From Eucommia ulmoides (taxonomy: Eukaryota > Streptophyta > Magnoliopsida > Garryales > Eucommiaceae): a DNA stretch of 64,000 nucleotides. The position numbers and the translations under genes are program-made. Location of the stretch: contig CM028336.1 in assembly GCA_016647705.1 (NCBI GenBank), forward strand, positions 10,548,880 through 10,612,879, in the 5' to 3' direction. The notes beneath the pieces were generated by a model. The model was not told where the DNA came from. It did not search any database and was given only the letters and a program-made list of their open reading frames with translations. Shown here piece after piece: positions 21,477 to 61,033 of this stretch; the stretch's first letter is position 1, and every line of letters starts with the position of its first letter.

Positions 21477-24400
21477 TTAAAGAGCTTCTGAGAAGCGTAG
21501 ATCGGCAGGACCAGGACCCAATATCCCTTTCTGTTCACTTATCTTACCCAGTCCCTGAGATGACTCAGCCTGTGCCTGCACATTCTTTTCTTCATGTCTC
21601 ACCGAAACCCCCCCTTGCCACTCCATCTACAATAACAAAGAAGAAGGAGAAGCATCACATAATTGCCGGTAAACACTTCATGAATGACAGAACGTCGGGT
21701 CGAATTTTGGTAATGTAGAAAACCCAATGGGCCTAACTCACTCTTAAAAGACATTTTGTAAGAGGAGGATTGCTCTCGGCTTTATATATATAGCTCAAAA
21801 TCAGGTAACACAAGCGATGTGGGATTCAACAGGCCCCCTCACGCACAGGGTGGACTTTTGACAAACCACTACGAATGGATATCGGGAGAAGGCCCCAATA
21901 TCGATGTGGGATTCAACACGTCCCAACGCGCAGGGTGAAGTTTTTGATAAACCACTGTAAATAGATTTCGGGGGGCCTAACAACATCGATTTGGGATTCA
22001 ACACACCCAACATTAGACAGTAGTCCTGGTTCTGATACCATGTAGTAATCAATGAGTCTAATTCAGTCTCAAAAGACACATTGGAAGAGGAGGATTACCT
22101 CTAGACTCATATATAGTGTTTGGTTGCATGGAATTGAAATTGTTTACATGCGTTCATTTCGAATTGGAATTTCATGACTTCAATTCCATGCTCCCAAATG
22201 CTAACAAATTGCCAATCTATAGCACAATGTATCAAAAGGAGATGTTTAAAAGCAACCGGGGAAATAACTTCTGACGAGTGCTTGTAATTATGTGAAAAAG
22301 CAGGCGATAAAAAAGCATAAGCTTATGTTGATTATTTGGTAAATATAGCTATAAAAGCAATTATTATAAATAACCAAATTACATTAAAAAAAAAGAAAAG
22401 AGTTTTAGACTTTTAAAAGATTAGACACCGTTTGATAACGTTCTTTAAATTCTTTTTTCCCTTGTAAGCAAGAAATTACTAAAAATAAAAGTATTGTTTG
22501 TTTTATGTTTTTAAAAGAGAGTAAAGTATATTAAGAAACAAAAAATAATTATTTTTTATTTCTTCGATTTTTATATTGTAAGCAAATTTTTTCAATCCTT
22601 AAAAAAATATCTTTTGGATTAAGAGATTGATTATATCGATAACAATAAGATATCATGTATAATTCTCTATGTTATCAAACAGTGCCTTGTATTTTGAATA
22701 TTTTAAAAACATCCGACCAACGGTTTGGAGCAAATTTATGGTTGTATCATTTTGGGTCGAAACATCCATATATTTCATAATCACAGGTGAGAAGAGGACT
22801 ATTCCAATAAGCAACAACGGTGAACCCCCGTCATGCTACCACCCTTCCTAATTTTGTAAGCAATTACCTCGTCATGATTGTGGCTTCCATCCAATAACGG
22901 GGTCATGAGAGGAGGTGTAATATCTGGGTCGCGCTTTTGAAATATGAACGTGGTATAAAGACCTACAGAAGTGGAAAGCAAAAGAATAAGAAATTGTGAG
23001 AAATGATCAATTTCTAAATTTTTTAGGAAAATTCTCTCAAAAGTCTCCTCTCATAAAAATACCATTTTATGGAATTCTATAACTGTGATTTTTTTACACA
23101 TGAGATGGTCCTTAGAAAATTATTTTTTGAATCTTGAGACCTCTAAAAAAGTCTCCTAATTTTTTATGTAATACTTTTAAGGAAAAAAGAGAAATAAATG
23201 AAGTAAGTACCTAACACGTCGTATGTCCTAGGAAGAAGTCTTCCCCTTGGATCCACAAGGTTATGACCGGCATCTGGCAGCATGCCCGCAAATTGTGCTC
23301 TGTCAAAGACATGGCAACAAGGGAAAAGAAATGCAGCCTTTCTGTCAACACTAATTGGAAACCAAAAGAGAGATGCAAGTAGAATATCCTTAACTTTTCG
23401 TCTTGGGGTCATGTGTTGATCAAAAGTCATGATCGTTCATCTTAGGTAGGATTGACAAAACGAGTATTTATATCATAACACAACATAAAACCAACACGAA
23501 ATTATTAGGTATGAATTTAGTTTATTAGATAACTGGTTGTCATCGGGTCGGAGTCGTCGGACATGATAAGCATAATAAGAAACATGTCAAATTTCACGTT
23601 TACCTGATTACCCGATAAGCAACACGAACGATACGATAATAATTAATCGGATGTTTAGGTTACACGATAAGAAAGACATAATAGGTCACACGATAATTTC
23701 AGAAATTATTTTTAAAATAAAAATATACTAATAAATATTTCTAAATATTCCCTAAATTTGTCTAATATTACAGTTTAGTCCATATTATATATATTATTTT
23801 AAGATATGGATTATGGAATTGTTGGCAACTATTTTAAGACCTTTCATATTTGGTGTGAATGTTGTTTAGGAGGTACCATTTTATTGGTATTTTTTTTGTT
23901 CCTTTTTTTCTTTTCTTTCTTGTAGTTGTATAATTTTCTTATATTTTGTTCTTTTATAAATTGCGTTAATAGGTCTTTAATGTATAATTGGTTAAACAAG
24001 TCTTCATTGTGACATGATATCTTATTGTGTTGTGTCAATATTTCGTATTATCATGTCACACCATAAATTATCGTGTCGTTTCGTGTCAACCCGATAAATT
24101 TTATGTCATTGTGTAACATGATAAATTATCGTGTCTAGGGATGTCAATGGATACGCCATACCCATCCCACCTGAATCACCCACTAGACACACACCCACCT
24201 AATTTGGATGTCCTGTTCATAAGCGGTCGAATCGGTTGAAATTTTGGACAAATTCATTTTGTCGGAGCGGATACTGGGCTTTGATCCAATCCCAACCGAA
24301 GCACCCGATCTGACTGAATCAAATACCTTAAGCAGAGGATTTTTCTTCGTTCATCGCATCGTTTCATCATTTGTAGTAGTGGTTTAAGGGCTAAGGGGAT

Positions 24401-25053
24401 GATGATTTGCGCCATTGTGAAGAAGATGACGATGAAGATAATAGGCCCAACCCCCAAATTGCAATGGTTTCCATCTCGACCTAACTCCGATTCGTTTTTC
24501 CAAAACTCAAGTACTCCGTTTTTCTCAGCTGAAAGGTCAACCCCCATCTCTTTCTCTAACTTCGTCAACAAATCTATCTATTGCGATTATGGATTCCAGT
24601 TTGATTATGTCATTTCTCATTCATTTTTTCATATGAAGTTACCTGATTGTTGACACGATTGCCAATGATTTCCATAAATTCAATTCATTGTCATAGCTAG
24701 TCTTTTGCAGAAATAGTGTCTTCATTTTGTGTTGGGGGTTCGACCGGCCCGCAAAACAGCGGTTTGCTTCCACATTTTGGTTGAAAGCAGGTGACATTTT
24801 TTCAGACCCGATCTCATTCGGGTTGGCTCTCGGGTCAACCAAAAAATAAGGCCACCCGACATCTACAAACCCCTATGCATGTCGTATTGTGTCAACCCAA
24901 TAAGTTTCGTGTCGTGTTCGTTTTCAGGTTTTATAACACGATAACTTATAGTGTCGTGTTCGTGTCAGACTATGATACGATATGATAACACAATTTGTCA
25001 GCCCTAATCTTAGGTTACGTGCTGATCCAATGTTATGAAAAACAAACATTAAG

Positions 25054-25090
<37 letters not shown>

Positions 25091-28000
25091 GAATCCTATC
25101 ATATTGCAAAGATGTAAAAAAAACTAGATACTGAGATAACATGATCATACCAAATAGAAAGAATGAACAAATAAAGGAGCACAAAAAGAACCGAATTATG
25201 AGCAAAGTTGATATCCACCTTGTTGTCACAATACAACTTCATAGGAAGACTTATTGGTCTTTTAAGCTCTTTCAGAACCTGTTTTAGCCAAAAAATCTCG
25301 CACACTCCCTGCGCCATTGATCTGAATTCCACTTTAGCACTACTTCTAGCAACAACACTTTGCTTCTTGCTCCTCCAAGTGACTAAATTGTCCCATAGAA
25401 ACGTACAGTATCCCAATATTGACCTTCTATCAGTGAGCAAACCTGCCCAATCAGCATCTGTATACACCTCAATCCCTTTCCTCATTTTTCTTTAAGAAGA
25501 ATAATTTTCCTGGTGTGCTTTTTAGATAACAAAGAATTTAATACACAACTTCCAGATGTTCTTTGTACGGGGAATGCATAAATTGACTTACCATGCTCAC
25601 CGCGAAAGCAATGTCATGATATATATGTGACAAGTAAATAAGTCTTCCAACTAGTTTTTGGTATCTTCCCGTGTCTACTGGAATGCCATCTTTTACATCT
25701 CCAAGTTTAGCATTAGCTTCTATTGGAGTATCAGAAGGTGTGCAACCAATCATTTCAGTTTCTTTCAAGAGATCTAGAATAAACTTCCATTGTGACACTA
25801 CAATGCCCTTTTTTGACCTTGCCACTTCCATTCCTAGAAAATACTTTAGTTGACCCAAATCTTTTATCCTAAATTCTTTGGCTAAGCTCTACTTCAATCT
25901 ACTCATCTCTCATAAATCATCTCCAGTTAGAATTATATCATTCACATAGACAATTAAGACAGATACCTTATCTTTGGTAGATTTCTTTGTGAAGAGAGTA
26001 TGATCAGATTGTCCTTGTGTATATATCCTTGGCTCTTAACAAACTTTGAAAATCTCTCGAACCAATCTTGGGGAGACTGTTTAAGACCATATAGAGACTT
26101 CTTTAGTTTACATACCTTTGTTCCAAATTTCTCAGTAAATCCAGGTGGAGACTCCATATAGACTTCCTCCTGTAAGTCTCCATTCAAAAAAGTATTATTC
26201 TCATCCAGCTGATTCAGAGGCCAATCAAGATTAACAGCAACAGACAAAAGTACCTGAACTGTATTTAAAGTTTCAGAGTAGTGTACTCTATATGTCTGGG
26301 TGAAGCCTTTAGCTACAAGATGAATCTTGTATCTTTCCAAAGATCCATCTGAGTTGTACTTCACGGTAAATACCCATGCAGCCAACAACTGTCTTCCCAT
26401 ATGGCAGATCCACTTTCTCCCAAGTAGCATTCTTCTCCAGAGCTCTCATCTTCTCAAAAATTGTTTCTTTCCACTCAGGAACATTTAGAGCCTCTTGGAC
26501 ACTATTAGAAATGACCACTAGACACTTGTAAAATAAAGGCACAATATGAAGATGAAATATTTTTGTAAGATACAAAATTTAACAAAAGATGTTTAGTACA
26601 AAACCTAACACCTTTCCTAAGAGCAATAGGAAGATGAAGCTGACTAGAAGAATTTGACTCAGAATTACTTGGAGGAATCTTTGACGAGTCATCATGAATT
26701 TCATGATCTAACCTCTTATTAGATTCTTGGTAGCGCTATGGGATAGTGCATCTTTTTTGTGCTAGATACTCCTTTGAATATACAAGACCTTTATACTGTT
26801 TCGCACACATCTCTGTTGTTTCAGTATTTTGATTCTGAGATGGCATTTTCATCGGTAGATTCAATATTTTTAACATTTAATTCATTTGTTTTCTCAGACT
26901 TTGTATTTTCCATATCATTCGCTTTTGGTAACTGTTTGTGAGAAACATCATCATGAACAAACTCAAAAATTAAACCATCTAAAAAATCATCTTCACTAGT
27001 GCTCTCCCCCTGAAGATGAGAATCGTTGTAGTTGGATTGTCTTTCAAAAAATGTGACATCCATAGACACAAACATGTTTTTGGAAACAGGATCAAAACAT
27101 TTATAACCTTTCTGATTTGTAGGATAGCCTACAAAAATACATTTATGTGTTTTTGGATCAAGCTTAGAACGTCTAGGATTATAAACAAAGGCCACACTTC
27201 TAATTTTTTTTACGGGAATATCTGTTGTTAACCGAGTGGTGGGAAAACATTCAATAAAAAGCTTTATTGGTGTTTTAAAGTTTAAAATTCTCGCAGGCAG
27301 CCCATTAATCAAATAAGTGGCTGTTAAAACAGCTTCTTCCCAAAGATACTTAGGAACCTTAGTTTGAAAATTTATGGCTTTAGCAACTTCAAGGAGATGT
27401 CTGTTTTCTCTTTCAGCCAACCCTTTTTGTTGAGGTGTATTATTACAAGAACTTTGGTGAACAATTTCTTTTTCAGCAAAAACATTTCCTAACATAGTGT
27501 TAAAAAATTCATTTCTATTATCACTTTGAAATTTTTTAATCTGAGTATGAAATTGTGTTTGAACTATATTATAAAAAATTTTAAACACAATTTGGACATC
27601 AAATTTTTCTTTTAAAAAGAACACCCAAGTGACTCTAGTATGATCATCAATGAAAGTAACAAATCGGTGTTTTCTAGAAAAAATTGGCACTCTAGAAGGA
27701 CTCCAATCATCACTATGAATCATAGTAAATAGTTTTGATTTTTTATATGGTTGAGATGGAAAAACAACCCAATGATGTTTTGCTAATTCACAAGATTCAC
27801 ACCGAAAACAGAAGAATTTTTATTCATTAATAACTTGGGAAACAAATATTTTAAATATTGAAAATTTGGATTGTCCTAATTGATAATGCCATTACATAAT
27901 CTTACTGTCACTAGAAACAGAAATAGAATTGAAACAAGTCTGTTGATCTTGCCTTCCAAAGGTTGATCTGTTATTAAAGAAGTAGAGGTCACCATTTTAT

Positions 28001-31000
28001 TTAACACCCCTAATCATCTTCCCTGAGGTTAAATCTTGAAATTCACAACGAGAAGACCAAAAAATAACTTGACAATTATGATCAAGAGTTAATTTGCTGA
28101 CAGAGATGAGATTATATAACAAATGAGGAACGTGCAAAACATTTTTAAGAATTAGAGAAGGAAAAAATGTTAACTGTTCCTTTTCCAACAACAGTTGTAA
28201 ATGAGCCATCGGTAATTATAACTTTTTGATTCCCTGCACAAGGTGTATATGAAGAAAAAAATTACGAAGTGCCGGTCATATGATCCGTAGCACCTGAATC
28301 TAATATCCAAGAGTCATTAGACTTGGTACAAACGATGGCGACAATGAAAGAGTTAGAAATAAAGATGGGTTAGAATTTCCTAAGGATTGGGACTGAAACA
28401 TTTTATATAGGTGCTCTATCTGTTCCTTTGTAAACGGAAGTGACTCTGAGGAAGATTGTTACCTTGAATCTGTGCTGTTAGCTTGAAATGCGCCGACACC
28501 TTCCCCTGACTTGGTGTCACTGCTTGGTTTTTTCTTCCAATTTGCCGGTTTCTCATGCAGCTTCCAACAACTTTCCTGAGTATGCCACGGCCTTCTACAG
28601 TGGTCACATCAAGTTCTCTGCTTTCCTCCTCGCCTATCTCCTTTTGAATCTGCACCTTGGGCAACAAAAGCAGATCCCTCACCATCTATTTTTGGTTTAT
28701 CAATGTTCTTCAACATCACTTGCCTCCGTGCTTATTCTATACGTACTTTGGAAAAAACCTCCCTTATCGTCGGCAAGGGTTTCTTTACGTCCTCAAAACC
28801 TTATCGAGTTCTTCGTTCAAACCAATTAAGAACACAAATACCCGGCCTCTCTCAATCTTTTTTTTGTACCGAGCACTATCATTTGAATTTTCCCATTGTT
28901 CATCTTCAAATATATCCAATTCCTGCCAAACCGCCATCATATCATTGTAGTAGGTTGTTACCTCACGATTGACTTGCTACATCTTCTACATTCGAGTGTT
29001 TAATTTGAGCAATTATGAATGATTGTCCAAATCTGAATAAGTTTCCCGAACTGCTTCCTAGACATTGCGAGCCATCGGCAGGAACAAAAAAGGCTTTCCA
29101 ACAATTGGTTCCATGGAATTGATCAGCCAGGCAGTTACTATTGAGTTTTCCGAACACCACTGCCTGTATCTCGAATCATCGGTGGTTGGCAGTTTCACTT
29201 TGCCATTCAAGTGCCCGAGTTTCCCTTTACCGTCGATCACTAACCGCACGGACTGAGACCACTCAAGGTAATTCTTTTCATTCAATTTGTGAATGGTAAT
29301 TTGAAGAGAATTTTCAGAAAAGGGGGCAATTGAAAGCGGCGGCTGCAAAGCTCCCCCGACGACATCACCGAAAGCGGCGGCTGCGAATCCATCGACGACA
29401 TCGCCCCACTGCTGGCGTCTGACGAGGCTGAGCCGGAGCCGAAGCCAACCATGGCGACCTTGAAATTCATGATCAAACCCTAGGGCTTTAATGCCATATA
29501 GAAAGAAAGGAGGGAATAATTCTATTATTTATTGATTCAATTACAAGGGAGCAAACAACTTTAAATAGGAAAAGAATGACACACGACTACCAACCCTAGA
29601 ATCTCATACAATCAATGAATTTCTTAATTTATTCAAACTACTACTTTCTTAATTTATTTAAATCTCTAACCAATCAAACCCTAACAAAATATAACCCTAA
29701 TTTACCGAAAATATCTTAAGAAACCCTTTTGCGAAAAAACAAACTGCACACTTTTAATAGCATGCAGAAGGAAACTAACATCATGTTTCGCTGGATTTGG
29801 AAAATAATAAAAGAAGCAACCGTTCTCATTAATATATTTACTATAATTATAGATCACTGATTAGGGCTGGAAAAACGGGTATTTACACGATGACACGAAA
29901 CGAAATTATCAGGTTTGGGTTTTGCTTATCAGGTATTGGATCATTATCGTATCAGACCCGATAGTACGATAAGAAATAGTATAGGTTATCAGGTTGACCT
30001 GATAACCTGATAGGTTACACGATAATAAATTCGTGTATTCAGGTTACACGATAATCTGAGACCTAATAGGTTACCCGTTAATTTAATAAATTATTTTTAC
30101 ACCTCCAAATTATCCAATATTATAATTTTTATTTTTTTTGTAAATAAATTGTGTTAACAAGTTGTCAACTTAACAGGTCGTTAATGTGTAATGGAAATCT
30201 ATGAGATTATCTTATCGTGTCGTGATTACCTAATAGGTTTCGTGTTTTCGTGTGACACGAAAAATTATCGTGTCATGTCGTGTTGGCACGATAATTTTCG
30301 TGTCGTGTTCGTATTTGGGTAGTTTGACACGATATGTTTATCATGTTGTGTTCGTGTTTGCTCTTATCGTGTTATCGTGTAACGACCTATTATACGAATT
30401 GCAAGCCCTATCACTGATGAGTTCAACAATTAGTAACGTTTTCTTATGCTTCCCACAGAAACATGAATATTAGCTAGGCTCATCTGAACAATCTTAGAAT
30501 GACTCCATAAACATTGCTTCTACCTTCAACAACAACAACTAAGTCTTTGTTCCACTTATATAGGGTCGGCTACATGAATCCATTTACGCCATAGTGATCG
30601 ATCAAAGCCCATCCCCTCTATTAGGTTTAATGTCATCAAATCATTTCTAATAGTCTTGTCCAACGTCTTCTTAGGTCTACCTCTCCCTCTAATAGTCCCC
30701 TGCACTTGAACTAAATCACATTTTCTCACTCGTGCTTCTATAGATCTTCTATGCACATGCCTAAACCATCGTATATGGTTTTCTCTAATTTTCTCTTCGA
30801 TGAGTGCTATTCCTAAATTCTCTCTAATAGTTTCATTCTTAATTTTATCCATTCTCGTCTTCCCACTCATCCACTGCAGTATCCTCATTTCTGTCACCTC
30901 AATTTTTAGGACATGATTCGTTTTTATCGCCCAACATTCAAAACCATACAAAAACGCTGGTCTTATAGCAGTCTTGTAAAATTTTCCTTTAAGTTTCAAT

Positions 31001-40000: not shown

Positions 40001-43000
40001 AAAGTTTTCGTGAAGTTACAACCTTATCGACAGAAATCCTTGGCAACAAGGCGCAACGAAAAACTCGCTCCGCGTTTCTATGGGCCATTTGAAATCCTGG
40101 CTCATGTAGGCACAGTGGCGTACAAGTTGTCCTTATCTCCCAGCTCATTCATCCACCCCATCTTTCATGTATCCTAGCCTCGCCAAGCCCATGGGGAGAC
40201 CATTTCTTCTCCCCTCTTGCCACCACAATTGTCGCCTGACCTAAAATTGTTAGTAGAGCCTGCTGAAATTCTTGGAGTGCGCAATCTGAACACTGGTGGT
40301 ACTACTCTTGTCGAAGTTCTAATCCAATGGAAAGACTTACCACAATTGAAGCCATTTGGGAGAAGTTTGAAACCATTCAGCAACAATTTCCTTAGTTTCC
40401 CTTTGAAGACAAGGTGAAAGTTTGGGCGCGGGTAATGATAGACCATCAATTAGGTACATCTATGCACGACGCAAGAAAGGAAATGACGCAAGCAAGGAAA
40501 GTTACTAATTACCTTGGGAGAGTTTTGGGAAAGCTATTGGGCGAGAATAGGAAAGCTTTATCAGCCATAATTACCTAGTTAATAATTACCTTGTATGGTA
40601 ATCTGGGTAATTATGGGAAGGAGTTTTATATGGTAATATATAGGCAATAAAAGGGGCAAAAGGGAGTGTGTATGCGATATCCAGAATCATTTTGTATTGA
40701 ACTTTGGCTCTAGGAGAGAACCAAATCTCTCGAATTCCTAGGTGTTTGATTGCTCTCTTGATTTCAATAAAATACACTTGCTTTCCCTCTCATCTTGTTT
40801 GTTTTTCATTACTAGACACACATTATACACTTGGAAAAATTAAAAAGAAGAATTACGGTATGTTTGGTTGGATGGAATCGAGGGCGGAATGGAATCGCAT
40901 TCCGCCCTCGATTCCTATTCCGTTATTTGGTTCTCCAATGGAATCACTTTTGTGATTCCATTGGAATGAAATATGGTGGAATGGGATTCCATTTGAGATA
41001 GGGTGGAATGAGATTTTAGTCCAATAGAATCAACATCCTAAATTACATAACCACCCTTGTATTTAAGTCCTTAAAAATTAAGAACAAAAATTAAAAATTA
41101 AGAACAGAAACAAAAACTAGAGAACATAAATAGAAATTAGAGAATAGAAAATTGAGAATAGAAATAGAAATTGAGAACAAAAAATTAAGAACAGAAATAG
41201 AAAATTGAGAATATAAACATAAAATTAGAGAACATGAAATTGAGAACAGAAACTGAAAATTGAGAACAAAAAATAAAAATTAAAAACAAAAATAGAAAAT
41301 TGATAACAGAAAATTGAGAACATAAACTAAAAATTGAGAACAAAAATAGAAATTTAGAGAACAGAAATTTGAGAACGGAAACTGAAAATTGAGAACAAAA
41401 ATTGAAAATTGAGAACATAAACTGTAAATTGAGAACAAAAACAGAAAATTAAAGAACGGAAAATTGAGAACGAAAACTGAAAATTGCGAACAGAAACAGA
41501 AATTAGAGAATAGAAACTGAAAATTGAGAACAAAAATAGAAATTAGAGAACATAAACTTAAAATTGAATGGAATAGTGAAATATAATAAAATTTTGTAAT
41601 AAAGACATAATGAGAATTTTATTATATTTCATTCCATTCCTTTACTCATTTCATACCAACCAAATTTCATAAGGACATAACAGGGATTTTAATATATTTT
41701 ACTATTCCATTCCTTCCCTCATTCCATACTAACCAAACAAGAGAATGGAATAGCGATTCTATTGACAATTCCATTCCATTCCTTCTCTCATTCCATTACT
41801 TCTTCCATTCCATTCCACCCTCATTCCATTCCGTCCAACCAAACGAGCCGTTAGTTTTTTCAATTGTGAATCAGATTTTTAACACTGAACTTCGGAATTA
41901 GAGGCTTTTAAATTGCTATCTTGAAACTTAATTTTTCCGGACAAAAAAAAACTTAATAGTTAAACTTAACACCGAGTTACTAAATAAAACACATGAGAAT
42001 TTCTTAATAGAACCAATAATGAAATTCTACAATGGTTAAATTACAAACTTCAATGGTGATACTTTGTTATTACATGGTAAAAAAGTATAACTAAGTTTAT
42101 TTTTAGGTTTTATTACTATACAAGTTGCTTATGAGCCTTATAGAGCCGAATTTTGAGCAGATAGAAGCTAGAGCTTGGTTCATTTATCACACAAAATTTA
42201 GTCAAACTAGAGCTGCTCACGAACAATATGGTTCGTGTTACAGTCCTAACTCCTAAGCATGTAAAAGAATTTCTCTGGTACCACGCATATGATGAAAGCA
42301 TAGGGCGAAATTTATTTCAATCAATACCCCGACTGATTAAATGAATGTTAATCCCATGGATTGTATTCAGCATTCATCAGAAATCTAGCCAAAGAATGTT
42401 TCATTTTTTCCATCGTGGCAAACAATTCCTATCATAAAAACAAACACCCATTCACCAGGATGCAACCACTATATGCATAACTTAATCAAAACAATACATC
42501 CAAAAAAAGGGGACAAACTTTTTGTTGTCACATTTCTAAGGAAAAGAGAACAGAAAATCATGATGCCATACCATATAGTAGATGAGTCAGGAGTAATACC
42601 AAGAAAATAACCCCCAGGTCTAAGCAAAGATGACACATTACGTAAAAGTCTACTCGCTTTTTCCTCTGTTTCAAAACAAAGCTGCAAGAACACATTGAAC
42701 AATTATCGGTTTGTTTCATAAAATACATCACATAAAAAGACACTGCAGAGGTTTGAAACAAAGCTGCAAGCGCACATTGAAGTATTATTGGTTTGTTTCG
42801 AAAAAAAGACATCATGCAAAAGACAGTGCAAACAATACCTGCAAATGCTGCATGCAACAAACAATATCCGCTAAAGTGCCCTTGTCATCCAAATGCAATT
42901 CAATATCTTCCTGCGAAAATAAAAATTAATTCAAGCCTCTAGAAATTACATAAGAAAATGAACAGCAACTGTAAGCACACGTAGAGTCTGGGATTCATAT

Positions 43001-46000
43001 GAAAAACAAAAGAAAAAAAAAGGTGATCTATGTTTCCATATATTTGAAGATTTATTTTCATCTTAATTAGTAGCAGCCAAGGATTAACTTGCTCTGTGGA
43101 ATAAACGGAATTAAATAATAAAGTAGAAAAAGTTGAATTCCAATGGATGTTTACAAATTTTCTGCAGAAGTTTTAGATTAGAAAATATCAACCTGCAACT
43201 CCCATTAATGCAAATAATTATTATTGTTTACGCCTTACGGACAAAAATAAAATAAAAAGCAAATTGATGTGGCGGCATGATTTGGCACCATGGCCTCCTG
43301 CTAGTAGGCAAAAGGCATACATATTACACCAAGGCACACAGGATGTGAATCGTTTCTTTGATACTACGACGCTAAAAGATGAGGCAACATGTTTTGGTGC
43401 TACAGTTTTTCCTTAGAAGGGAAACGGCACACATGCTAATCCAACAGCATAGAACAATGATTGTATCAAATATAGATATCCACTTAGAATAGAAAAAAAA
43501 ATGATTTTCTAGAGATCATTCACTGCAACGGAGACCAAAATTAAATAGGATACATGCTTCATTCAAATTTAGATATTCCACCATTTCCACATTATCTAAA
43601 GCTTCGGTAGTAAGTTCCATAGCCCTCCACAAAGTCTTTGTATCAATATCAACCAAACAATTTCCATTCAAGTCACAAGACACAAATCAAAGCCCTTCCT
43701 AAGTAGGAAATTTGTTCTCTGATTGCAGAAGAAGTGAAAAAATTCTGATTTGAGTTCAATTATAAGCTTTTAGTTCGTAACTTCTTAGTTTTTAGGTAGA
43801 ATTACTAGAAGCTGAGCCCTAAGAACAGATGCCTACCTTCATGTAATGATTCCTAATTGTTTTATACAATCTAGGGATGGCAACGGTTCGGTTTGGGCCG
43901 GTTTCACTAGAAACCAAAACCAAACCATTTGGCATATACCAAACCCAAACCCAAAACCAAAACCGTAGGTTTTTAGAAAACGGTTTTGAAACTGAACCGT
44001 CTAATTTCATACAAAACCATAACCAAAACCGCAAAACTGTTAAGATTTTATTATTTTATATAAAACCAAAACTACCACGAAAACTCGAACCGTTGCTTTT
44101 TATATATAAACAAACACATAACTAAAATATTAGAATAAATTATGAAAACCCTAAAATTAGCCCAATTAACCCTATAACACACACACACACTGATGGGGAT
44201 CTAAGGCCACCACTTCGAACTTATGTACGGCGAAAGCGGAAAAATCATTAGTCATTTTTTCTGTAGTAGTTAATTATATTTGTAGCTAATAAAGTAGTTG
44301 TTAAGTAACCGTTATCCTTATTTTGTCAAGTAACAGTTAAAGTAACCGTTATTCTTATTTTGGCAAGTAGCCATTATTGTTTGCCTATATAATGAGACTT
44401 TATTGTAATAGAAAGACACTTTTGATTAATTGATTATTGAGTTATTCGAGCAAGAATATTTTTTTTTTATTATTATTAGTTTTTATTTTATTCTTTTCAA
44501 TTGGCCTCCTTCATCAATTTGGTATTCAGAGCTTAGTTTGATCATTCACGCTTCGCGTGCAAACCAAAACCCTAGCCACCATGGATCAGAAAACTCTAGC
44601 CACCATCAATTAGCCCAGCCACGTTCTGCTACAACATCCCAACAATCCAGATCCAGCAACCACTACTCCGGATCTAAGCTCATCGGACCTCTACGAGCCC
44701 TTACCGGCGCTGGCCAGCCTGCGCCAGACCTTGAAAGGCTTGTTCTAGCCCTTCAAGGGCCCTCGCCGGAGCTTCGCAGCAACCCAAGTTTGCTTCAGAT
44801 TCCATCCGTAGCGGCTGCCGATTGCTTTGTGCCTTAGGCACGATCTGTAAGTCCTACTATACTTATATATATACACACTATTGTTTTATTCCTAGTTTTT
44901 CCATTTGATATATTTAAAAAAAAAAAATTATATATAAAAACAGAAATAACTTAAAAAAAAAACAGAAATAACTTTAAAAAAAAAGGGAAATTATTTCTAT
45001 TTTACCCTATTGCATTATTTTCGTTTGTGACATTATACTACTTCCATTAAGAATATTTGGGGCATTAATATCATCACTTTATGATCCACTCCATGACTAT
45101 TCGAAACCTAGAAACTTCCCAAAATTCTATTTGACAAGAATTCCAAACCATGCAAGAGATTGTGGCTAATCTTCAAAATTCCATAAACTACATTCAAAAT
45201 TCTGTTAACCACCTTAGAGAGGAAGTGAACCAAAATCGAGATAATTTATATACTGACCCCCATAAGTGACAAATTGAATTCCATAGGGAGATCCGCATTG
45301 AGTTAGGTAGCTTGATCACTCAACAAGTCACTCAACTAGTTGAGCTAAATCATAGGGCTACCAAACACATGGAAAAACAACCAGTACGTAAACGTTGAGT
45401 TGAGTCTAATTTTTCTCATCATAATGAAAATTTACCATGCCCCCACTCACAGCCGACCGCTCCTAAGGTTCTAAATTAAAGTTCTTCACCTACCTTAGCT
45501 CCTTCCCACAGTCACCCCAAGCGAGGCACAAATGAAATAGAAGGTAGGCACAAGGACTCTGGTAGAAGATTTTCCCTAGAGAGTCACAAGCCCATAGCCC
45601 TTAAGTATCGATTTGATAAGCCTCCAGAATTTTTAGATGAAGTATACCCCCAATGAAGGAGTCGCATTTGGCTATCCTAGACCAATAAGAGCTCAAGGTA
45701 GACCCCATCAACCTCACTTTAACCATGATGATATTACTAGAAAGGTGAAGGTTGATGTTTCTTGTTATGATAGCACTCTAAACTCTAACACTTTCTTAGA
45801 TTGGCTAAATGATTTGGAGGATTATTTTGAATGGTATGAGATGTTAGATAACCATAGGGTAAGATTTGCCAAAATGAAACTTATTGGGTCTGCTAAAAGG
45901 TATTGGCAAGGTGTCCAAAGAAACATGGAACGAATAGGAGAGACACCTATTACCCATTAGGAGGACATGAAACGTCGGCTAAAAGAAAAGTATCTCCTGA

Positions 46001-49000
46001 CATGTTGTATGCAACAACTAATGAACCAATGGCTCAACCTTAAGCAATTGTCCTTTGGCGTATATGATTATGTAGTCCGATTTGAGGAATTAATGTTGAG
46101 GTGTGATATTGATGAGGCATCATGGGTTCGTGTCACCAAATTCATGAATGGGTTAAGGCCTGATATTCAAGGAGAAGTCTCTCTCCATTCACCAGAATCA
46201 TTAGAAAAGGCATATCATAAGGCTCTAGAAATAGAGAGGTTCTCTAGGTTTTCCGATCAAAGAAGAGTAACTTCTCAAATAGAAGGATCAAATCAGTCTA
46301 GATCTACACCTTTTGAGAAATCACGTAGGACCAATCAATCACAACTTGTCTTCGTAGCACTCAAGAGTAGTTACAACCCCAGTCACGTACAACCAGGGGC
46401 TTCCAAGACAAGCTCTAATCCTAGTCAAAGTATCTGTCAGATACCTAGTATAACTAAGACTAGAGATTTCTCCTCCATTGAATGTCACAATTGTCATGGT
46501 GTGGTCACTTTGCATTGCGTTGCCCCATCAAACCCTAGCAATAGGTGTTGAAGAGGTAAAACCCCCAGATAAGGAAGAAAATAACCAAGTAGTGGAACTT
46601 TTAGAACCATCGGAAGAGGGAGAAGAACTAGGGTACGAATCTAGGAATGCTTATCTTAATGTTATGAGGTGTATCATTACGACACCTATAGATTCTGATG
46701 GAAACATACTAGTATCTTTCACAATTATGTCAAGTGTGGGGATAGAGTTTGTAAGTTGGTTATCGATGGAGGAAGCTCAATGAATGTCATATCCAAGTCT
46801 GTTGTTACTAGGTTAAAGCTCAAAACTAACCCACATCCTCACCCCTATAGGGTTGCCTGGGTAGATAAGACTTCCTGACTTGTTTTTGAGACTTGTTTAG
46901 TACCAATCAAGATGGGTGACTACTACTCACAAATTTTATGTGATGTTTTACCCATGGATGTTGTTCATCCTTTCAACATGCTGGCAAAAACATCGTCTTA
47001 AAACCAGCCAAACCCAACCCAAAAGAAAGTCAAACAAAGGATGAGTCCTCTTCTCAAAAAACCTATAAGAATGAATTGCATATCTTATCCCGTCAAAAGT
47101 TTGAGCATGAGAGTAAGAACTCAGGTGTCTTATTGGCATTAGTAGGAAAAAGAGAAATCTGCCTTCCTACAGAGACAAGTACATCTCCCGGAAGAGATCA
47201 CCACCTTGTTGGGGGAGTTCAGCGACGTGACACCCGAAGAGCTACCTAAAGAATTACCACCTATGAGGGACATTCAGCATGCCATCGACCTAGTACCAGG
47301 ATCTCAATTGCCTAATCTCCCGCATTATAGGTTGAATCCCAAAGAACTGGCAGAAATAAATAGGCAGGTAGACGAACTCCTCGCAAAAGGTCGAATTCAA
47401 CCTAACCTTAGCCCTTGGGCAGTTCCTGCTTTGTTGACTCCCAAAAAGGATGGCTCTTGGAGAACATGTGTGGATAGTCGAGCCAATAATAGGATCACAA
47501 TTAAGTACCGATTTCCTATCCCTAGACTTGATGACTTACTAGACCAGATAGCAGGGTCCAAATGGTACACAAAAATCGACTTGCATAGTGGGTACCATCA
47601 AATTCGTATCCGACTTGGGGACGAATGGAAGACTATCTTTAAGACCCAAGATGGCTTGTATGAATGGTTAGTTATGCCATTTGGACTCTCGAATGCGCCT
47701 AGCACCTTTATGAGAGTTATGATTAAGATTTTACGACCTTTCATTGGGAAATTTCTAGTGGTATACTTTGATGACATCCGGATTTACAGTACATCTAGGA
47801 ATGAGCACCTAAGCCATATCCGCTTGGTTCTTGAGAGCCTTAGGAATGCCAAATTGTACGTTAATATCAAAAAATGTTACTTTATACAGCCTCAAGTGTT
47901 TTTCTTAGGATTCATCGTGTCTGCTCATGGTATCTCTACTGACCCTGAAAAGATCAAAGCTATTAGGGAATGGCCAGAACCTAAATCTATTACCAATGTT
48001 AGTAGTTTCCATGGACTAGCCACTTTCTATCGAGGCTTTATTAAAGGCTTTAGCACTATCATGGCCCTAATGACGGATTGTATGAAGAAGGGAGAATTTA
48101 AGTGGACTAAAGCGACTCTTCAAGCCTTCCATGTCATTAAGGACAAGATGACTGAAACACCTGTCTTAAGACACCCTGACTTTTCTAAAGTCTTTGAGGT
48201 TGCTTGTGATGCGTTTGGCATTGGAATCGGGGGCGTGTTGAGTCAAGAAGGCCACCCGATAGCTTATTTCAGCAAAAAACTTAATGACGCCAAACAAAGA
48301 TACTCTATTTATGATAAAGAGTTTTACGCTATTGTACAAGCTCTTCGACACTGGCGATACTATCTGTACCCCAAGAGTTTATTTTGGTATTCCGACCATC
48401 AAACACCTAGATATCTTCAATCCCAGAAAAAGCTTAGTATTAAACATGTGAGGTGGGTAGAGTTCCTACAGGAATATACGTTTGTCCTTAATCATAGATT
48501 TGGTGTTGAGAACAAGCCTACGGATGCCCCGAGTTTGTATGGTTTTACAGTCTATGAATGCCCATGTTGTCGATTTTAAAAGAATGAAAAATGAGTATTC
48601 TACTTGCCTTGATTTTGGTGTCATTTTTCATGATATCTCAGAGGGTTTGAGACTTAACCATATTGATTACGTCATTCGCGATAGTTACTTGTTTCGCGGT
48701 ACTACCTCGTGCATCCCTTGCTCATCTCTTTGTGACTTTTTAGTATGGGAATTACACGCTGGGGGCTCACAGGACACTTTGGTCGCGACAAAACCATTGC
48801 TTTGGTGGAGGATAGATTTTATTGGCCTAGCTTGAAGAAGGATGTCTCCAAAATTGCGTCATAGTGTCGAACTTGCCAACTAGCCAAGGCTAGGAAAAAT
48901 AATATAGGCATGTACACCCCTTTGCCTATTCCTCACATGCCATGGAAGGATTTAAGTGTGGACTTTTTCCTTGGACAACCTCGGACAATTCGAGGTCATG

Positions 49001-51626
49001 ATTCGGTGATGGTTGTCATGGATAGATTTTCTCAAATGGCCTATTTTATCCCTTGCAACAAGTCGACTGACGCGTCACATTTGGCCAAATTGTTTTATAG
49101 GGAAGTTGTACGATTACATGGATTACCTACTTCTATTGCATCAGATCGGGATGTCAAGTTTGTCAGTTATTTTTAGAACACACTTTGTAAGCTTTTTGGT
49201 ACCATTCTGAAATTTTCATCAGCTTTCCACCCCCCAACTGATGGGCAAATTGAGGTTAGTCTAGGTAATTTGCTTCATTGCCTAATGGGTGATAAGTTGG
49301 GTAATTGGGATTTATTGTTGCCTACTGCGAGGTTTGCTTATAATAATTCGGTCAATCGCTCCGCTGACAAAAGCTATTTTGAGATTGTGCATGGGTTCTC
49401 CCCCCACCAACCTGTCGACCTTATTCCCTTGCCCCTTGACTGTCGCCCTTCTGAGATTGCTGAAAGCCTGAATCTTTGCCCAACACATTCGTGATCTTCA
49501 TGCTAACATTAGGCGCAAGATTGCTATGAGTAATGAAAACTACAAGCTTGCTGCTGATTTGCACCATATAAATGTAGAATTTAAGGAGGGTGAGTATGTA
49601 ATGGTTTGAGTTTGCCCTGAATGATACCCAAAATACTCTTTTAAGAAACTACATGCTAGAGCTACGGGGCCACACCGTATTCTCCGTAGACTTGGACTTA
49701 ATGCTTATTTACGTGATTTACCATCTCATATGCATATTAGTCATGTTTTCAATGTGGAAGACTTGTTGCCTTATCGAGGCACATTCGAACCTTCTATTTT
49801 TTTCACAGGTACTCTTCCTGGGACAGATGTTAATTCGCCGGCACCAACACCGAAGCTACCCCGTCTGCCACCATATAGAGATGATCAAATTAAAGAGGTG
49901 TTAGAAGACGAGATCATTGGCTCATCACAAGGTAGATATCAAAGGTATCTTGTCGAATGGAAGGGTCGACCACTTTCAGATGCTATGTGGATTCTAGACG
50001 AGGAGTTCAAGCGACTTGCACCTGACCACTTGGAGCAGCACCATTCTTATAACTCTCCAGAGGCGAGTTCTTTTCAGCCGGGGAGAATTGATGGGGATCT
50101 AAGGCCACCGCTTCGAACTTATGTACGATGAAGAAGGAAAAATCATTAGTTCTTTTTTCTATAGTAGTTAATTATATTTATAGCCAATAAACTAGCCGTT
50201 ATTCTTATTTTGGCAAATAGCCGTTATTGTTTGCCTATATAATGAGGCTTTATTGTAATAAAATGAGATTTTTCATTAATTGATTATTGAGTTATTTGAG
50301 CAAGATTTTTTTTTTTATTATTATTATTAGTTTTTATATTATTCTTTTTAATTGGCCTCCTTCATCACTCACACACGTATATATACACACACTAGAGGCC
50401 AAAATGTAAATAAATAAAAAAGTGAGGGCAATAAGTAATAACATAATAAAAATATATCTAAAATGCATGTTATGCGGTTCGGTTACACGGTTCGTTTTCA
50501 AGGTTACTATTTCAAAACCAAAATTGTAACTAAAACCATTTAATCGGTTTCAAAACTGAACCATTCAGTTCGGTTCGGTTTGATTCGATTACCTGTCGGT
50601 TCGGGTTAAATTATCAGGTCTAATACAATCTTCACAAGGTCAAACTAGACATTATCAAAAAAACGAGGTGGAAATTTCCCTCATTTGCCCTATACGACTC
50701 TGCCCATGCTTATAGACAAGACTCAGCAATGCACACACTTGTAAACTTACACTGAACCAACCAAAATTTACCACAGACTGATCTAGTGGAAAACATATAA
50801 GCTTGTTGAGAGAGAGCGAGAGAGAGACAGAAAGAGAGACTAACAATGCAAGGATCGAGGTCAAAAAACTTAGAAGTATAGGTCTTGCGCATACTTTCCC
50901 AAGCTTCTCGAACTTCGCCCACTCCAGAAGTGGCAACGTCTACCACCAATCACTATTCAAGAATCAGACAACAATCCAAATTCGAAATTCAACAATAAGA
51001 CAAAAGGAACTTGAATACCAATGCCAATGTAGTGGCCGATTTGAGCTTCGTCCCACTTCGCTTCATCAGGTACTCTTCCACAGTACAAATCACACACCTT
51101 CATCGAAACACCACCAATAATTGAATTGCATTTACACACACAAATACATATGCATAGTGTCACAGGCCAAGCCTTTCGAGGCTGAAAAATGGACCATGCA
51201 GCGTTAACTAGAGGATCCCCTAGTAGCTAGGCAGAGGATCTTGAATAGCGGAAATGGTTTTAATAGCAACAACGTTATACAATAACAACAATAATTGTAT
51301 TAATATGGAAGGTATGACAGGTTTACAATGTTGTAGTGAATCTTGTTGCTATTAGAACCACTTTCTGCTGTTCAAGATCCTGTGATCTTCAGGTTAGCTG
51401 CTAGGCGATCCCTAGTTAGCACCGCACGTTTTCTAACCTCGAAAGGCTCAGCCCGTGACACATAGCATTAAACAACTACTGACATACATAGCGAGAGGGT
51501 TAGCATACGACTTACAGTTGCGTAAGGGGAAACGAAGACCTTGATTAGGGCAGCTTTGGCGAACTCGATGAGTCTATAATGAATTGACTCGGTCGCCGTC
51601 CGGTGACTCGGGATTGCACTCGTCAT
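21477..51626 (-). CDS. mRNA cap guanine-N7 methyltransferase (plant type 2), 11 coding exons over 30 kb
   Basis: Transfers a methyl group from S-adenosylmethionine to N7 of the 5' guanosine cap of mRNA; expected in the nucleus. Coding exons in order: 51626-51516, 51097-51019, 50939-50845, 42910-42839, 42681-42572, 34364-34242, 34124-34032, 33701-33633, 23299-23211, 22962-22868, 21626-21477. All junctions are GT-AG and join in frame to 361 residues, close to the 370 I recall for Arabidopsis At3g52210. Landmarks: [14 protein letters not shown] at 17-30; VCDLYCG at 38-44, a weakened form of the SAM-binding motif; IGHYIGID at 57-64; [19 protein letters not shown] at 138-156; [14 protein letters not shown] from 157; [53 protein letters not shown]-terminal [16 protein letters not shown]. 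The coding exons total 1.1 kb; introns 3, 5 and 8 (7.9, 8.2 and 10.3 kb) are swollen by nested transposons. The frame is open upstream to an ATG at 51749, so a 41-residue longer start is possible. Confidence 0.93.
21714..22123 (-). mobile_element. TRIM-like element in methyltransferase intron 10 (fossil)
   Basis: Read on the - strand, an LTR-like unit (21714-21831) runs from TGTTGAATCCCACATCG to TCTACA; a partial second copy lies at 22041-22123. Directly inside the second copy is TGGTATCAGAACC, the methionine-tRNA primer-binding site. The internal part is only about 200 bases and carries two more copies of the GATTCAACAC start. This is the layout of a terminal-repeat retrotransposon in miniature. 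The outer part of the right copy is missing, and a sequence beginning TGTTTGGTTGCATGG follows instead. Confidence 0.65.
22120..22867. other. Rest of methyltransferase intron 10: possible small MITE sequences
   Basis: A 90-base inverted pair, GCATGGAATTGAA at 22131 and its complement near 22190, resembles a tiny MITE. Farther on, GACACCGTTTGATAACG (22424) and its near-complement at 22672-22687 could bound a second one of about 265 bases. Neither shows a target duplication I could confirm. Confidence 0.35.
23447..25006. mobile_element. hAT-like element, 1.56 kb, in methyltransferase intron 8
   Basis: The ends are inverted (TAGGATTGACAAAACG at the left; TAGGGCTGACAAATTG read inward from the right) and perfect 8-base duplications ATCTTAGG flank it (23439-23446 and 25007-25014). 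The interior has many CGTGTCGTGTT and ACACGATAA units in both directions. No transposase was found. It is the same family as the 549-base copy at 29862-30410. It lies about 150 bases from exon 9 of the methyltransferase. Confidence 0.85.
24136..24875. mobile_element. Possible hAT-like element nested inside the 23447-25006 copy
   Basis: The ends TAGGGATGTCAATGG and TAGGGGTTTGTAGATG (read inward) resemble the hAT family at 43872 and 56689, and the composition inside differs from the ACACGATAA-rich host element. The flanking octamers ATCGTGTC and TGCATGTC agree at only 5 of 8 positions, so the call is tentative. Open frames on both strands at 24254-24653 match nothing I recognise. Confidence 0.45.
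25057..25087. repeat. TA microsatellite
   Basis: About 15 TA dinucleotides in methyltransferase intron 8, between the hAT element and the copia fossil. Confidence 0.85.
25092..25168. repeat. Second copy of methyltransferase intron 8 sequence
   Basis: This stretch (starting AATCCTATCATATTGCAAAG) closely resembles 33505-33590 (AATCCTTTAATATTGCAAAG), about 80% alike by eye with a few short gaps. The 33.5-kb copy lies 40-130 bases inside the intron from exon 8; this one borders the copia fossil. The two copies bracket the copia element, a hAT element and the LINE. Confidence 0.7.
25180..29840 (-). mobile_element. Ty1/copia retrotransposon fossil in methyltransferase intron 8
   Basis: On the - strand, from right to left: an LTR-like region (about 29490-29840) ending near a primer-binding-site-like TGGCATTAAAGCCC; the gag start (about 29470-29060); a gag zinc-finger region and protease region (28700-28000); integrase (27723-26820) with the [20 protein letters not shown] motif; reverse transcriptase (26430-25540) with [14 protein letters not shown] and [13 protein letters not shown]; and part of RNase H (25485-25200) with [10 protein letters not shown]. 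The order is that of copia. No 3' LTR is recognisable. It is broken, with roughly ten or more breaks; the age cannot be read from an LTR pair. Confidence 0.85.
29862..30410. mobile_element. hAT-like element, 549 bases, in methyltransferase intron 8
   Basis: The ends are TAGGGCTGGAAAAACG and, read inward from the right, TAGGGCTTGCAATTCG. Perfect 8-base duplications TCACTGAT flank it (29854-29861 and 30411-30418). The interior is built of ACACGATAA and CGTGTCGTGTT units like the larger copy at 23447-25006, of which it is a shorter relative. It has no coding capacity. Confidence 0.9.
30527..33370 (-). mobile_element. RTE-type LINE in methyltransferase intron 8
   Basis: A non-LTR retrotransposon of about 2.84 kb read on the - strand. 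The 5' half has an endonuclease domain (about 33158-32400: [37 protein letters not shown]); the 3' half has reverse transcriptase (31690-30556: [29 protein letters not shown]). It ends in a TTG repeat tail (CAACAACAAC on the + strand at 30527), as plant RTE elements do. Direct repeats CTTCTACCTT flank it (30517-30526 and 33371-33380). The reading frame is split into at least four pieces: frame changes separate the endonuclease parts near 32640-32710 and the reverse transcriptase near 31370-31380, and most sequence between 32057 and 31700 is not in one clean frame. It is inactive and shorter than a full element. Confidence 0.88.
33196..33372. repeat. 63-base tandem-type repeat at the LINE 5' end
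   Basis: Two copies of a unit of about 63 bases beginning CGCCCAACGCTTAATG (33202) and CGCCCCAACGTTTAATG (33312) lie 110 bases apart. Both fall inside the LINE as bounded by its target duplications, in its 5' untranslated part. Confidence 0.65.
34365..34916. other. Native part of methyltransferase intron 5
   Basis: Unremarkable AT-rich intron DNA between exon 6 and the first transposon. The one open frame (34512-34718) resembles nothing. Confidence 0.5.
34917..35312 (+). mobile_element. TRIM retrotransposon in methyltransferase intron 5
   Basis: Two 116-base direct terminal repeats (34917-35032 and 35197-35312) start TGTTAG-ATCCCACATC and end TTTATAATA or TTTATAACA. The primer-binding site TGGTATCAGAGCCTAACC follows the first at 35035, and a purine-rich AGCCTAGGGGAA precedes the second. 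The internal part is only about 164 bases and non-coding, as in terminal-repeat retrotransposons in miniature. The repeats differ at about 14% of positions by eye, which suggests an old insertion. No target duplication is visible because the right edge abuts the gypsy LTR. Confidence 0.85.
35314..40812 (+). mobile_element. Ty3/gypsy retrotransposon fossil in methyltransferase intron 5
   Basis: LTRs of about 400 bases lie at 35314-35712 and 40415-40812 and differ at about 6% of positions by eye, which suggests an insertion a few million years old. Between them, in gypsy order on the + strand: gag with a retrotransposon-gag domain (36230-36700) and a CCHC-like zinc region (about 36890), aspartic protease ([13 protein letters not shown], about 37160), reverse transcriptase (37868-38160: [13 protein letters not shown]), RNase H (38560-38960: [20 protein letters not shown]), integrase (39050-39600), and a chromodomain-like end (40240-40390). 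The element has most of its parts but is broken, with about ten breaks. Confidence 0.9.
40856..41850. mobile_element. PIF/Harbinger MITE, 995 bases, in methyltransferase intron 5
   Basis: The ends are inverted (CGGTATGTTTGGTTGGATGG at the left; CGGCTCGTTTGGTTGGACGG read inward from the right), flanked by TTA target duplications (40853-40855 and 41851-41853), which is the PIF/Harbinger rule. Subterminal GGAATGGAAT and ATTCCATTCC stretches are inverted and match those of the 3.55-kb element at 57753-61304, so that element family probably mobilised it. The middle is a tandem repeat (next entry). No coding capacity. Confidence 0.9.
41080..41575. repeat. Minisatellite of about 20-base units inside the MITE
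   Basis: About 25 degenerate copies of AAATTGAGAACAGAAACTG-like units, some 18-21 bases each. Strong A-rich strand bias. The open frame on the - strand (41185-41418, repeated [10 protein letters not shown]) is just this repeat translated. Confidence 0.85.
41851..42571. other. Native part of methyltransferase intron 5 near exon 5
   Basis: AT-rich intron DNA with no feature that I recognise; no open frame with family similarity. Confidence 0.5.
42669..42815. repeat. Tandem copy of the exon 5 splice-acceptor region
   Basis: The stretch 42669-42740, which spans the start of methyltransferase exon 5 and its acceptor (TTTCAAAACAAAGCTGCAAG on the + strand), is repeated in slightly changed form at about 42752-42815 (TTTGAAACAAAGCTGCAAGC), with the following GGTTTGTTTC also repeated. 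The duplicate therefore holds a second candidate acceptor about 80 bases upstream in the direction of transcription. Confidence 0.75.
43872..50622. mobile_element. hAT-like element (574 bases) split by a gypsy insertion, intron 3
   Basis: The outer ends are TAGGGATGGCAACGGTTCGG at the left and TAGACCTGATAATTTAAC read inward from the right. Perfect 8-base duplications ATACAATC flank them (43864-43871 and 50623-50630). The element's own sequence is 43872-44190 plus 50368-50622 and is rich in AACCAAAACC and GGTTCGGTT units; the rest is the nested gypsy element. It is related to the copy at 56689-57309. No transposase is present. Confidence 0.9.
44191..50367 (+). mobile_element. Ty3/gypsy retrotransposon fossil nested in the hAT element, intron 3
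   Basis: LTRs start TGATGGGGATCTAAGG and end CCTCCTTCATCA: 44191-44516 and 50089-50367. They differ in length and at about 8% of positions by eye, so this copy is probably older than the one in intron 5. A primer-binding-like TTGGTATTCAGAGCTT follows the first and a purine-rich GGGGAGAAT precedes the second. In between, in gypsy order: gag (45640-46550), protease region (46600-46980), a long reverse transcriptase-RNase H frame (47206-48579: [42 protein letters not shown]), integrase (48700-49500) and a chromodomain-like end (49730-50131). Most parts are present; it is broken, with several breaks. It entered an AC repeat, so the target duplication is unclear. Confidence 0.92.
50845..51626 (-). 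other. 5' exon cluster of the methyltransferase (exons 1-3)
   Basis: Pointer entry: exons 1 (51626-51516), 2 (51097-51019) and 3 (50939-50845) encode the N-terminus and the SAM-binding part of the methyltransferase described under 21477-51626. The next exon is 7.9 kb away. Automated gene finders may call this cluster as a separate short gene. Confidence 0.85.
51158..51460. mobile_element. Foldback element, 303 bases, in methyltransferase intron 1
   Basis: Arms of about 110 bases are inverted copies of each other: TGTCACAGGCCAAGCCTTTC at the left and TGTCACGGGCTGAGCCTTTC read inward from the right. Five-base repeats CATAG flank it (51153-51157 and 51461-51465). No coding capacity. Inverted arms suggest a MITE, but a 5-base duplication with TG...CA ends is more usual for retroelements, so I cannot name the family. 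Confidence 0.75.
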
Positions 51627-57752: not shown

Positions 57753-57989
57753 CGGCATGTTTGGTTGGACGGAATTAGAGACGGAATGGAATCGCATTCC
57801 GCCCTCAATTCTTATTTCATTGTTTGGTTCTCTAATGAAATCACTTTTGTAATTCCATTGGAATGAAATGAACTAGAATGCAATTCCATTTCAAATGGGC
57901 TGGAATCCAGTACAGCTCAATGGAATCAACATTCTAATTTACATAATAGCCATGTAATTAGGCCCTTGAATACTTAACAGCCTGATCAA

Positions 57990-58643
57990 CAAAACAAACT
58001 AGGCAGCCGATCGTCCATCTTCTCGCATAGCAACCCGGCAACCAAATCCATCGTTACACTCTCCCATCGCAGCTTCCAAATTCGATCGGCCTTAGATCAA
58101 AATCAATCAAAAACCCTGGCTTAATCGCTCCTCAGATTTCAGAGCTGCGATCTTGGATCGGCTTTTGGATCGACCATAGGTACGAGTGTTTATGCATATT
58201 AATGATCGACTTTTGGATTGTTTACTGTTCTTGATTTCGTTCATGTTTGCTCGTGATCGATTTAGTGATTATGCGTTTCGTTCGTATTTGGACGTGAGAT
58301 TCATCATTATGTTTTGATTTAATACTTCTTTTGTTCGTGTTTGGACGATTGGAAATTAGAGTTAATTAGTCTGCTTTTGTTCGATTGGCCTGAATAGATT
58401 CATGTAGTTGTCTTTCTTGTGCAATATAGTTCAATATAGTGCGATCGATTGGCCTGAATAGCAGAAGATTTTGTGAGTAATTAATTAAAGTGCTTCTCTA
58501 TTTCCTGGCAGTATAGTAGATGTATTTTCTCGCTCTCTTTCTTTTGTTTTTGGTTTTGTTGTTTCCTAGTCAAAGAAAACTTGGATCAGAGCAGCTGGTT
58601 GGTTCTCTTTCGTTGTTTTTGGCTTTCTTTTGTTTTTGTTTTT

Positions 58644-58683
<40 letters not shown>

Positions 58684-58960
58684 TTTTTGGTTTTCTTTTT
58701 CCTAGTTAGAGCCATTGGTTGATCCTTCCTTCACCTGTGGCAATGGAGAATGCACCATTGATCTTCACCACATCCTTTGTAGATCCCAAACAAATGATTT
58801 CCGACCCCTCATGGTGCCGTTCCTCAACCAAGCGGTGGAGCCATTCAACGGGCTCAAGATGTTGTTCAGCTCGCTGAGAAGGGTGGTTCCGACGGAGGCC
58901 CTCCGCTTGGACTGCTGGAGGACTTGATTTGTCGCTGGAGGAGATGGGGGTCTCACCACG
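57990..58960 (+). other. Possible captured host sequence inside the Harbinger element
   Basis: The stretch 58020-58180 looks like a plant 5' leader followed by a donor-like AG|GTACGA; 58510 has an acceptor-like CTGGCAG; 58690-58930 is GC-richer and open in more than one frame (for example a frame starting MENAPLIFTTSFVDPKQM near 58743). I do not recognise the protein. It is not part of the usual PIF gene pair. A T run of about 35 lies at 58647-58682. Confidence 0.35.
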
Positions 58961-59596: not shown

Positions 59597-59597
59597 A

Positions 59598-60975: not shown

Positions 60976-61033
<58 letters not shown>

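Follow-up and report, generated by a model that had tools for sequence, protein, structure and literature searches.

A gene in the genome of Eucommia ulmoides that spreads eleven short exons over 30 kb is probably of RNMT2 type, that is, a diverged plant paralogue of RNMT1 of the kind of Arabidopsis At3g52210, with introns that have grown through transposon insertion. We observed directly one open frame with intact splice sites, transposons within the introns, a paralogue elsewhere in the genome, and changes at cap-guanine contacts and in the AdoMet loop relative to human RNMT; the assignment is drawn from these features. The preliminary description of the locus had taken the gene for the presumably essential cap N7-methyltransferase of the plant, a view we do not retain because the cap-pocket residues are mostly replaced and C4 carries another PF03291 gene whose motifs are intact. 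The corollary that an essential gene has tolerated a heavy transposon load falls with it, as essentiality is unsupported and the C4 gene fits the essential role better.

Gene model

The window, the whole stretch of 64,000 nucleotides that was analysed, corresponds to C12:10548880-10612879 of a 947-Mb genome, and the gene runs from 51626 to 21477 on its minus strand (coordinates are those of the window unless stated otherwise). Eleven minus-strand exons join into one open frame of 361 amino acids plus stop: exon 1 (51516..51626, from the ATG), exon 2 (51019..51097, with an altered glycine-rich loop, DLYCGRVPD), exon 3 (50845..50939), exon 4 (42839..42910, holding the counterpart of the human RNMT stretch DICSCQFVCH, although its sequence differs), exon 5 (42572..42681), exon 6 (34242..34364), exon 7 (34032..34124), exon 8 (33633..33701), exon 9 (23211..23299), exon 10 (22868..22962) and exon 11 (21477..21626, to the stop codon). 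All ten introns start with GT and end with AG (20 of 20 splice dinucleotides intact) and the exon phases are compatible, which confirms the uninterrupted frame described earlier from eleven exons in perfect phase; the coordinates of the four junctions that had been singled out (50845/42910, 42839/42681, 42572/34364 and 33633/23299) were also found to be correct in the sequence. Coding sequence accounts for 1,086 of 30,150 bp (3.6%), in agreement with the earlier figure of about 96% intron, and the three longest stretches are intron 3 (7,934 bp), intron 5 (8,207 bp) and intron 8 (10,333 bp).

To gauge chance, we drew pieces matching the exons in length from the minus strand of the window, with AG before and GT after and neither end within an exon, the first piece starting with ATG and the last ending in a stop codon. 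Open chains were obtained in 0 of 200,000 draws, and the product of the per-exon rates was 1.6e-9. At positions 42674-42747 and 42756-42830, some 75 bp are duplicated in tandem (82%). The duplication repeats the last part of intron 4 together with the opening 8 bases of exon 5, and it creates a second acceptor-like site from which in-frame reading soon meets a stop.

Protein family and a second PF03291 gene

Relatives of the protein were sought in solved structures, in the plant's own genome and in viral contigs. Residues 21-290 match Pfam family PF03291 (cap guanine-N7 methyltransferase) with 126.4 bits (E 1.6e-36, cut-off 26.6), and exons 1 to 10 fill this single domain in order, covering profile positions 42-314 of 315. 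Among solved structures, nine matched at E 0.01 or better, every one of them a cap N7-methyltransferase. An NCBIfam search of the protein gave no match, Rfam at gathering thresholds gave none anywhere in the window, and the viral contigs returned 26 pattern matches and no relative.

The second PF03291 gene of the genome, on C4, scores 423.3 bits versus 126.4 for the window gene. Twelve of its exons were joined over 4,195 bp (L005 3080-7274) and encode 341 residues without a stop codon, with a longest intron of 682 bp in the joined stretch. One last exon is probably missing from this model, since Arabidopsis RNMT1 has thirteen exons according to PMC9839713, and the full span would thus be larger than the joined part. 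A degenerate copy of exon 8 of the C4 gene (L005 6122-6186), with its donor, is present in the following intron at about 6309-6375. Over 314 alignment columns, the window and C4 proteins share 29.3% identity. The genome search returned 12 matches, namely the eleven exons of the window gene itself and the C4 gene, and no second copy of the window gene was found among the best 11 candidates scored. The preliminary description had considered the case in which an intact copy lay at another locus and the window gene was silent; another PF03291 gene does exist, but it is a paralogue of only 29% identity and no true copy.

Residues of the cap pocket and the AdoMet site

We aligned the window and C4 proteins to a fragment of human RNMT that ends before Y467 and does not extend to the contacts in helix A (R173, N176, N177 and K180), with numbering from PMC7145595, with which the residue letters agree. 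In that study, F285, H288, Y289 and E370 contact the cap guanine and P319 is a hydrophobic guanine contact. At 21 positions compared, the human residue is kept at 6 in the window protein (203, 207, 211, 227, 261 and 319) and at 18 in the C4 gene, which departs with alanine at 205 and 365 and with a gap at 262. The AdoMet loop of motif I (human 203-210) reads DLGCGKGG in human RNMT, DLACGKGG in the C4 gene and DLYCGRVP in the window protein, such that G205, K208, G209 and G210 have become Y, R, V and P in the latter, whereas in the C4 gene only G205 of these four is changed, to A. At F285, H288, Y289 and E370 the window protein has Q, Q, L and H, and the C4 gene has the human residues. When the five guanine contacts (F285, H288, Y289, P319 and E370) are taken together with lid positions 360, 362, 365 and 366, the window protein retains one of nine (P319) and the C4 gene eight, all except 365. 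The aspartates D203, D227 and D261, which are part of the AdoMet site or touch it, are kept in the window protein, D261 in a column of a weakly aligned stretch. In the C-terminal stretch, a tyrosine of the window protein aligns with the C4 gene at what would be the site of human Y467.

As judged from this alignment, the cap pocket is mostly lost and the AdoMet site is partly retained. The name "cap methyltransferase" that accompanies the domain match would mislead for a protein that has lost so much of the cap pocket but has preserved its acidic AdoMet positions. On the same evidence the C4 gene appears to be a better candidate than the window gene for the essential cap-methylating enzyme.

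Transposons in the introns

Transposons amount to 23,738 of 30,150 bp, by boundaries that are partly approximate, and the gene would measure about 6.4 kb without them. With the same proviso on boundaries they fill 85% of intron 3, 84% of intron 5 and 91% of intron 8. The earlier account of introns composed mostly of transposon, with separate insertions in these three introns, is therefore upheld. Both gypsy elements are antisense to the gene, and the copia and LINE remnants are sense.

Intron 3 contains a Ty3/gypsy element (44191..50367, plus strand) with gag, RT, RNase H and SH3-like matches. Its LTRs are 90.9% identical over 275 ungapped columns and differ by a 48-base gap (77% identity with gaps counted); its flanks, CACAC and CTCAC, agree at 4 of 5 positions within a CA-rich stretch. 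The element is apparently nested within a probable hAT-type element (43872..50622), interrupted by the gypsy insertion, that has the 8-bp duplication ATACAATC at both ends. The inverted ends of the latter agree at only 7 of 13 positions, and it was read by eye after being missed by the scan for duplications and inverted ends; shared 8-mers occur at 71 of 614,992 position pairs in its flanks, so 8-base coincidences are not rare. Of the hAT and gypsy insertions reported earlier for this intron, the gypsy is well supported but the hAT is weak.

The three insertions previously assigned to intron 5 are all well supported. A TRIM (34917..35312) has two 118-bp terminal repeats that are 86% identical, with the primer-site-like sequence TGGTATCAGAGC just after the first. 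It is followed by a Ty3/gypsy element (35335..40812, plus strand) with LTRs of 93.7% identity over 396 columns. Gag and RNase H were matched in introns 3 and 5, and RT in the scanned intron 3 pieces; both elements have the Ty3/gypsy arrangement of an LTR pair with gag and then RT/RNase H. The third is a PIF/Harbinger-type element of 995 bp (40856..41850) with an internal tandem array, TTA on both sides and inverted ends agreeing at 19 of 23 positions, as is typical of that group. A 3,552-bp relative of PIF/Harbinger type lies outside the gene at 57753-61304, flanked by TAA on both sides and with inverted ends matching at 23 of 23 positions; its two ends match those of the intron 5 element, and an open frame inside it (59287-59754) gave no Pfam match. 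Elsewhere in the window, a 134-bp tandem array at 10541-10952 overlaps an open frame with a very weak pectinesterase match (E 0.12).

Intron 8 contains two hAT-type elements, each with the 8-bp duplication and short inverted ends of that superfamily: one at 29862..30410 (perfect duplication TCACTGAT, inverted ends 10/13) and one at 23447..25006 (perfect duplication ATCTTAGG, inverted ends 11/13). With a requirement for TAGG ends, a motif picked once the two elements were known, 2 were observed compared to 0 in 200 resampled introns; with this requirement lifted, 3 were observed, one of which we take as chance, compared to a mean of 0.15 in 100 resamples. No transposase was found in the pieces scanned against Pfam. 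About 740 bp of the larger element (about 24140-24880) are absent from the corresponding parts of its smaller relative at 29862-30410 and are perhaps a further nested insertion. A Ty1/copia remnant (25190..29600, minus strand, ends approximate) has gag, integrase and RT matches, with PF14244, PF25597 and PF07727 above the cut-off and PF00665 below it; no LTR pair was seen in a self-comparison. A LINE-like remnant (30489..33380, minus strand, ends approximate) matches PF03372 (endonuclease, E 0.005) and PF00078 (reverse transcriptase, E 0.0083), neither of which reaches the cut-off, and resembles 39 other genome stretches at 86-89% among the best 40 of 803 candidates; it terminates in a (TTG)n-like end, presumably as in RTE elements. 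Of the previously listed content of this intron (two hAT, copia and LINE), the hATs are well supported, the copia remnant is supported by its domain matches though not by an LTR pair, and the LINE type is weak, its two Pfam matches falling short of the cut-off. The intron also has two direct copies of a repeat of roughly 100 bp (25092-25189 and 33499-33600; 83.7% of 98 columns), one near exon 8 and the other at the point where the copia remnant stops; they may reflect an old duplication on either side of the inserted block.

Two further elements were absent from the preliminary description: a 303-bp inverted-repeat element in intron 1 (51158..51460) with target-site duplication CATAG, and a TRIM-like repeat in intron 10 (21713..22115, minus strand) with the primer-site-like sequence TGGTATCAGAACC. 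Additional hits of the scan for duplications and inverted ends in introns 3, 5 and 8 were taken as chance. Of all the element calls, the hAT of intron 3 and the LINE type of intron 8 are the least secure.

Insertion ages

K2P distances are 0.098 for the intron 3 LTRs, 0.066 for the intron 5 LTRs and 0.154 for the TRIM repeats. Substitution rates for dating are 1.3e-8 and 7e-9, at which these distances translate into 3.8-7.0, 2.6-4.7 and 5.9-11.0 million years, respectively. We rejected the intron 5 value as an insertion date, since both LTRs of that element carry 20 bp that most pairs of the family have before the right-hand LTR only. A genome search with the left LTR listed 45 matches, from the best 40 of 253 candidates. 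Among same-strand LTR pairs 3 to 11 kb apart elsewhere, compared by eye and read in the orientation of the element, the right-hand LTR matches from position 1 in 8 of 10, and in these 8 the left-hand LTR matches only from position 19 or later; the pairs on C7 and C11 do not fit this pattern. It is therefore likely that the intron 5 left LTR, which is likewise preceded by the 20 bp, came from a second copy or a rearranged one.

Discussion

The reading that best accommodates these results is that the window gene is an RNMT2-type paralogue. A gene of this type would be a distant RNMT1 paralogue lacking the AdoMet motif, and the window gene has 29.3% identity to the C4 gene and a changed motif. 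Its probable likeness to At3g52210 is judged from the description in PMC9839713. In that study, Arabidopsis RNMT1 (At3g20650) is essential and likely the sole enzyme, and At3g52210, its closest homologue at about 25% identity, lacks the AdoMet motif as well as further conserved residues and is judged unlikely to be active; in the literature we found no role for At3g52210 beyond this remark. We count the kept guanine contact P319 and the aligned C-terminal tyrosine against the RNMT2-type explanation.

An RNMT2-type gene at this locus would be transcribed into a pre-mRNA of at least 30 kb and spliced from eleven small exons, its introns having been enlarged through separate transposon insertions. 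The intronic transposons would be kept silent such that full-length transcription passes through them; PMC4417168 describes Arabidopsis genes in which intronic transposons are silenced and full-length transcription is allowed. The protein may still bind AdoMet through D203, D227 and D261 but would no longer hold the cap guanine as RNMT does, and essential cap methylation would be performed by the C4 gene. Because three acidic AdoMet positions are kept and eight of nine guanine and lid contacts are replaced, one may tentatively postulate that the protein is not a dead enzyme at all, and is instead an AdoMet-binding methyltransferase or AdoMet sensor with a cap pocket remade for another substrate, though we hold this to be rather doubtful. 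The RNMT2-type paralogue is a testable loose end, and its role is a question worth asking.

Several alternative scenarios can be weighed against the RNMT2-type assignment. The gene may be dying, with an intact frame but expression lost to introns that are too long or silenced; a single copy was found among the best 11 candidates scored, and the partial duplicate of the exon 5 acceptor in intron 4 could disturb splicing. We consider this unlikely, however, as the frame and all 20 splice dinucleotides are intact despite LTR-pair divergences of K2P 0.098 and 0.066 (the latter not a clean date), and other plant genes tolerate long introns. That the gene is a working and essential cap guanine-N7 methyltransferase merely stretched by transposons is quite unlikely: the PF03291 match over residues 21-290, the nine structure matches and the retention of D203, D227, D261 and P319 would be expected of such an enzyme, but four guanine contacts and the glycine-rich loop are replaced, a canonical paralogue is present in the same genome, and RNMT1 is described as likely the sole enzyme in Arabidopsis (PMC9839713). 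Two or three separate genes, or a chance chimera of the original model, would draw on nothing except three introns of 8-10 kb and are extremely improbable given that exons 1 to 10 form one Pfam domain in order and that random chains were open in 0 of 200,000 draws.

We also asked how unusual the architecture of this RNMT2-type gene is. According to PMC8626473, 876 of 2,184 conserved orthologues in Chloranthus exceed 20 kb, compared to 2 in rice and 0 in Arabidopsis; LTR elements are the major contributor to the long introns of Chloranthus, and intron length correlates with genome size. For grapevine, PMC3058033 puts the repetitive share of the content of 2,697 large introns at over 80%, and it attributes annotation errors in which single genes are split to unusually long introns; this lends support to the earlier caution that automated annotation may break the window gene. 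In the same genome as the window, a sample of MCM-domain matches (40 matches, 6 of them lone) gave 10 loci with at least two matched exons, and introns above 5 kb between adjoining domain parts were present at 2 of these, with lengths of 5,205 and 7,346 bp at C9:29.1 Mb and 5,144 bp at C17:11.56 Mb; at the remaining 8 loci no such intron is seen within the part that was matched. In the TCP1 family, exon matches on C6, C16 and C4 are separated by 5 to 15 kb, but these gaps were not counted, as unmatched exons may lie between them. Because long introns occur in Chloranthus, in grapevine and at 2 of 10 MCM loci, we place the architecture of the window gene towards the upper end of the range in plants without regarding it as an exception. 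Transposon-filled long introns are already known in plants, and the gene is a good test case for annotation, not a surprise.

Compared with known systems, the window gene resembles At3g52210, as described in PMC9839713, in having about a quarter identity to RNMT1, a changed AdoMet motif, and a place beside a canonical RNMT1. With the RNMT1 type, as represented by the C4 gene and human RNMT, it shares the Pfam domain, the stretch PGG(Y/I)F(L/I)G(I/T)xP, and D203, D227, D261 and P319, but it differs in the replacement of the glycine-rich loop and of F285, H288, Y289 and E370; its protein also continues for about 70 residues past the domain, which are absent from the joined part of the C4 gene, whose last exon was not located. 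In its long, repeat-made introns with prominent LTR elements in a conserved gene, it is like the genes described for grapevine (PMC3058033) and Chloranthus (PMC8626473), with no difference in kind seen.
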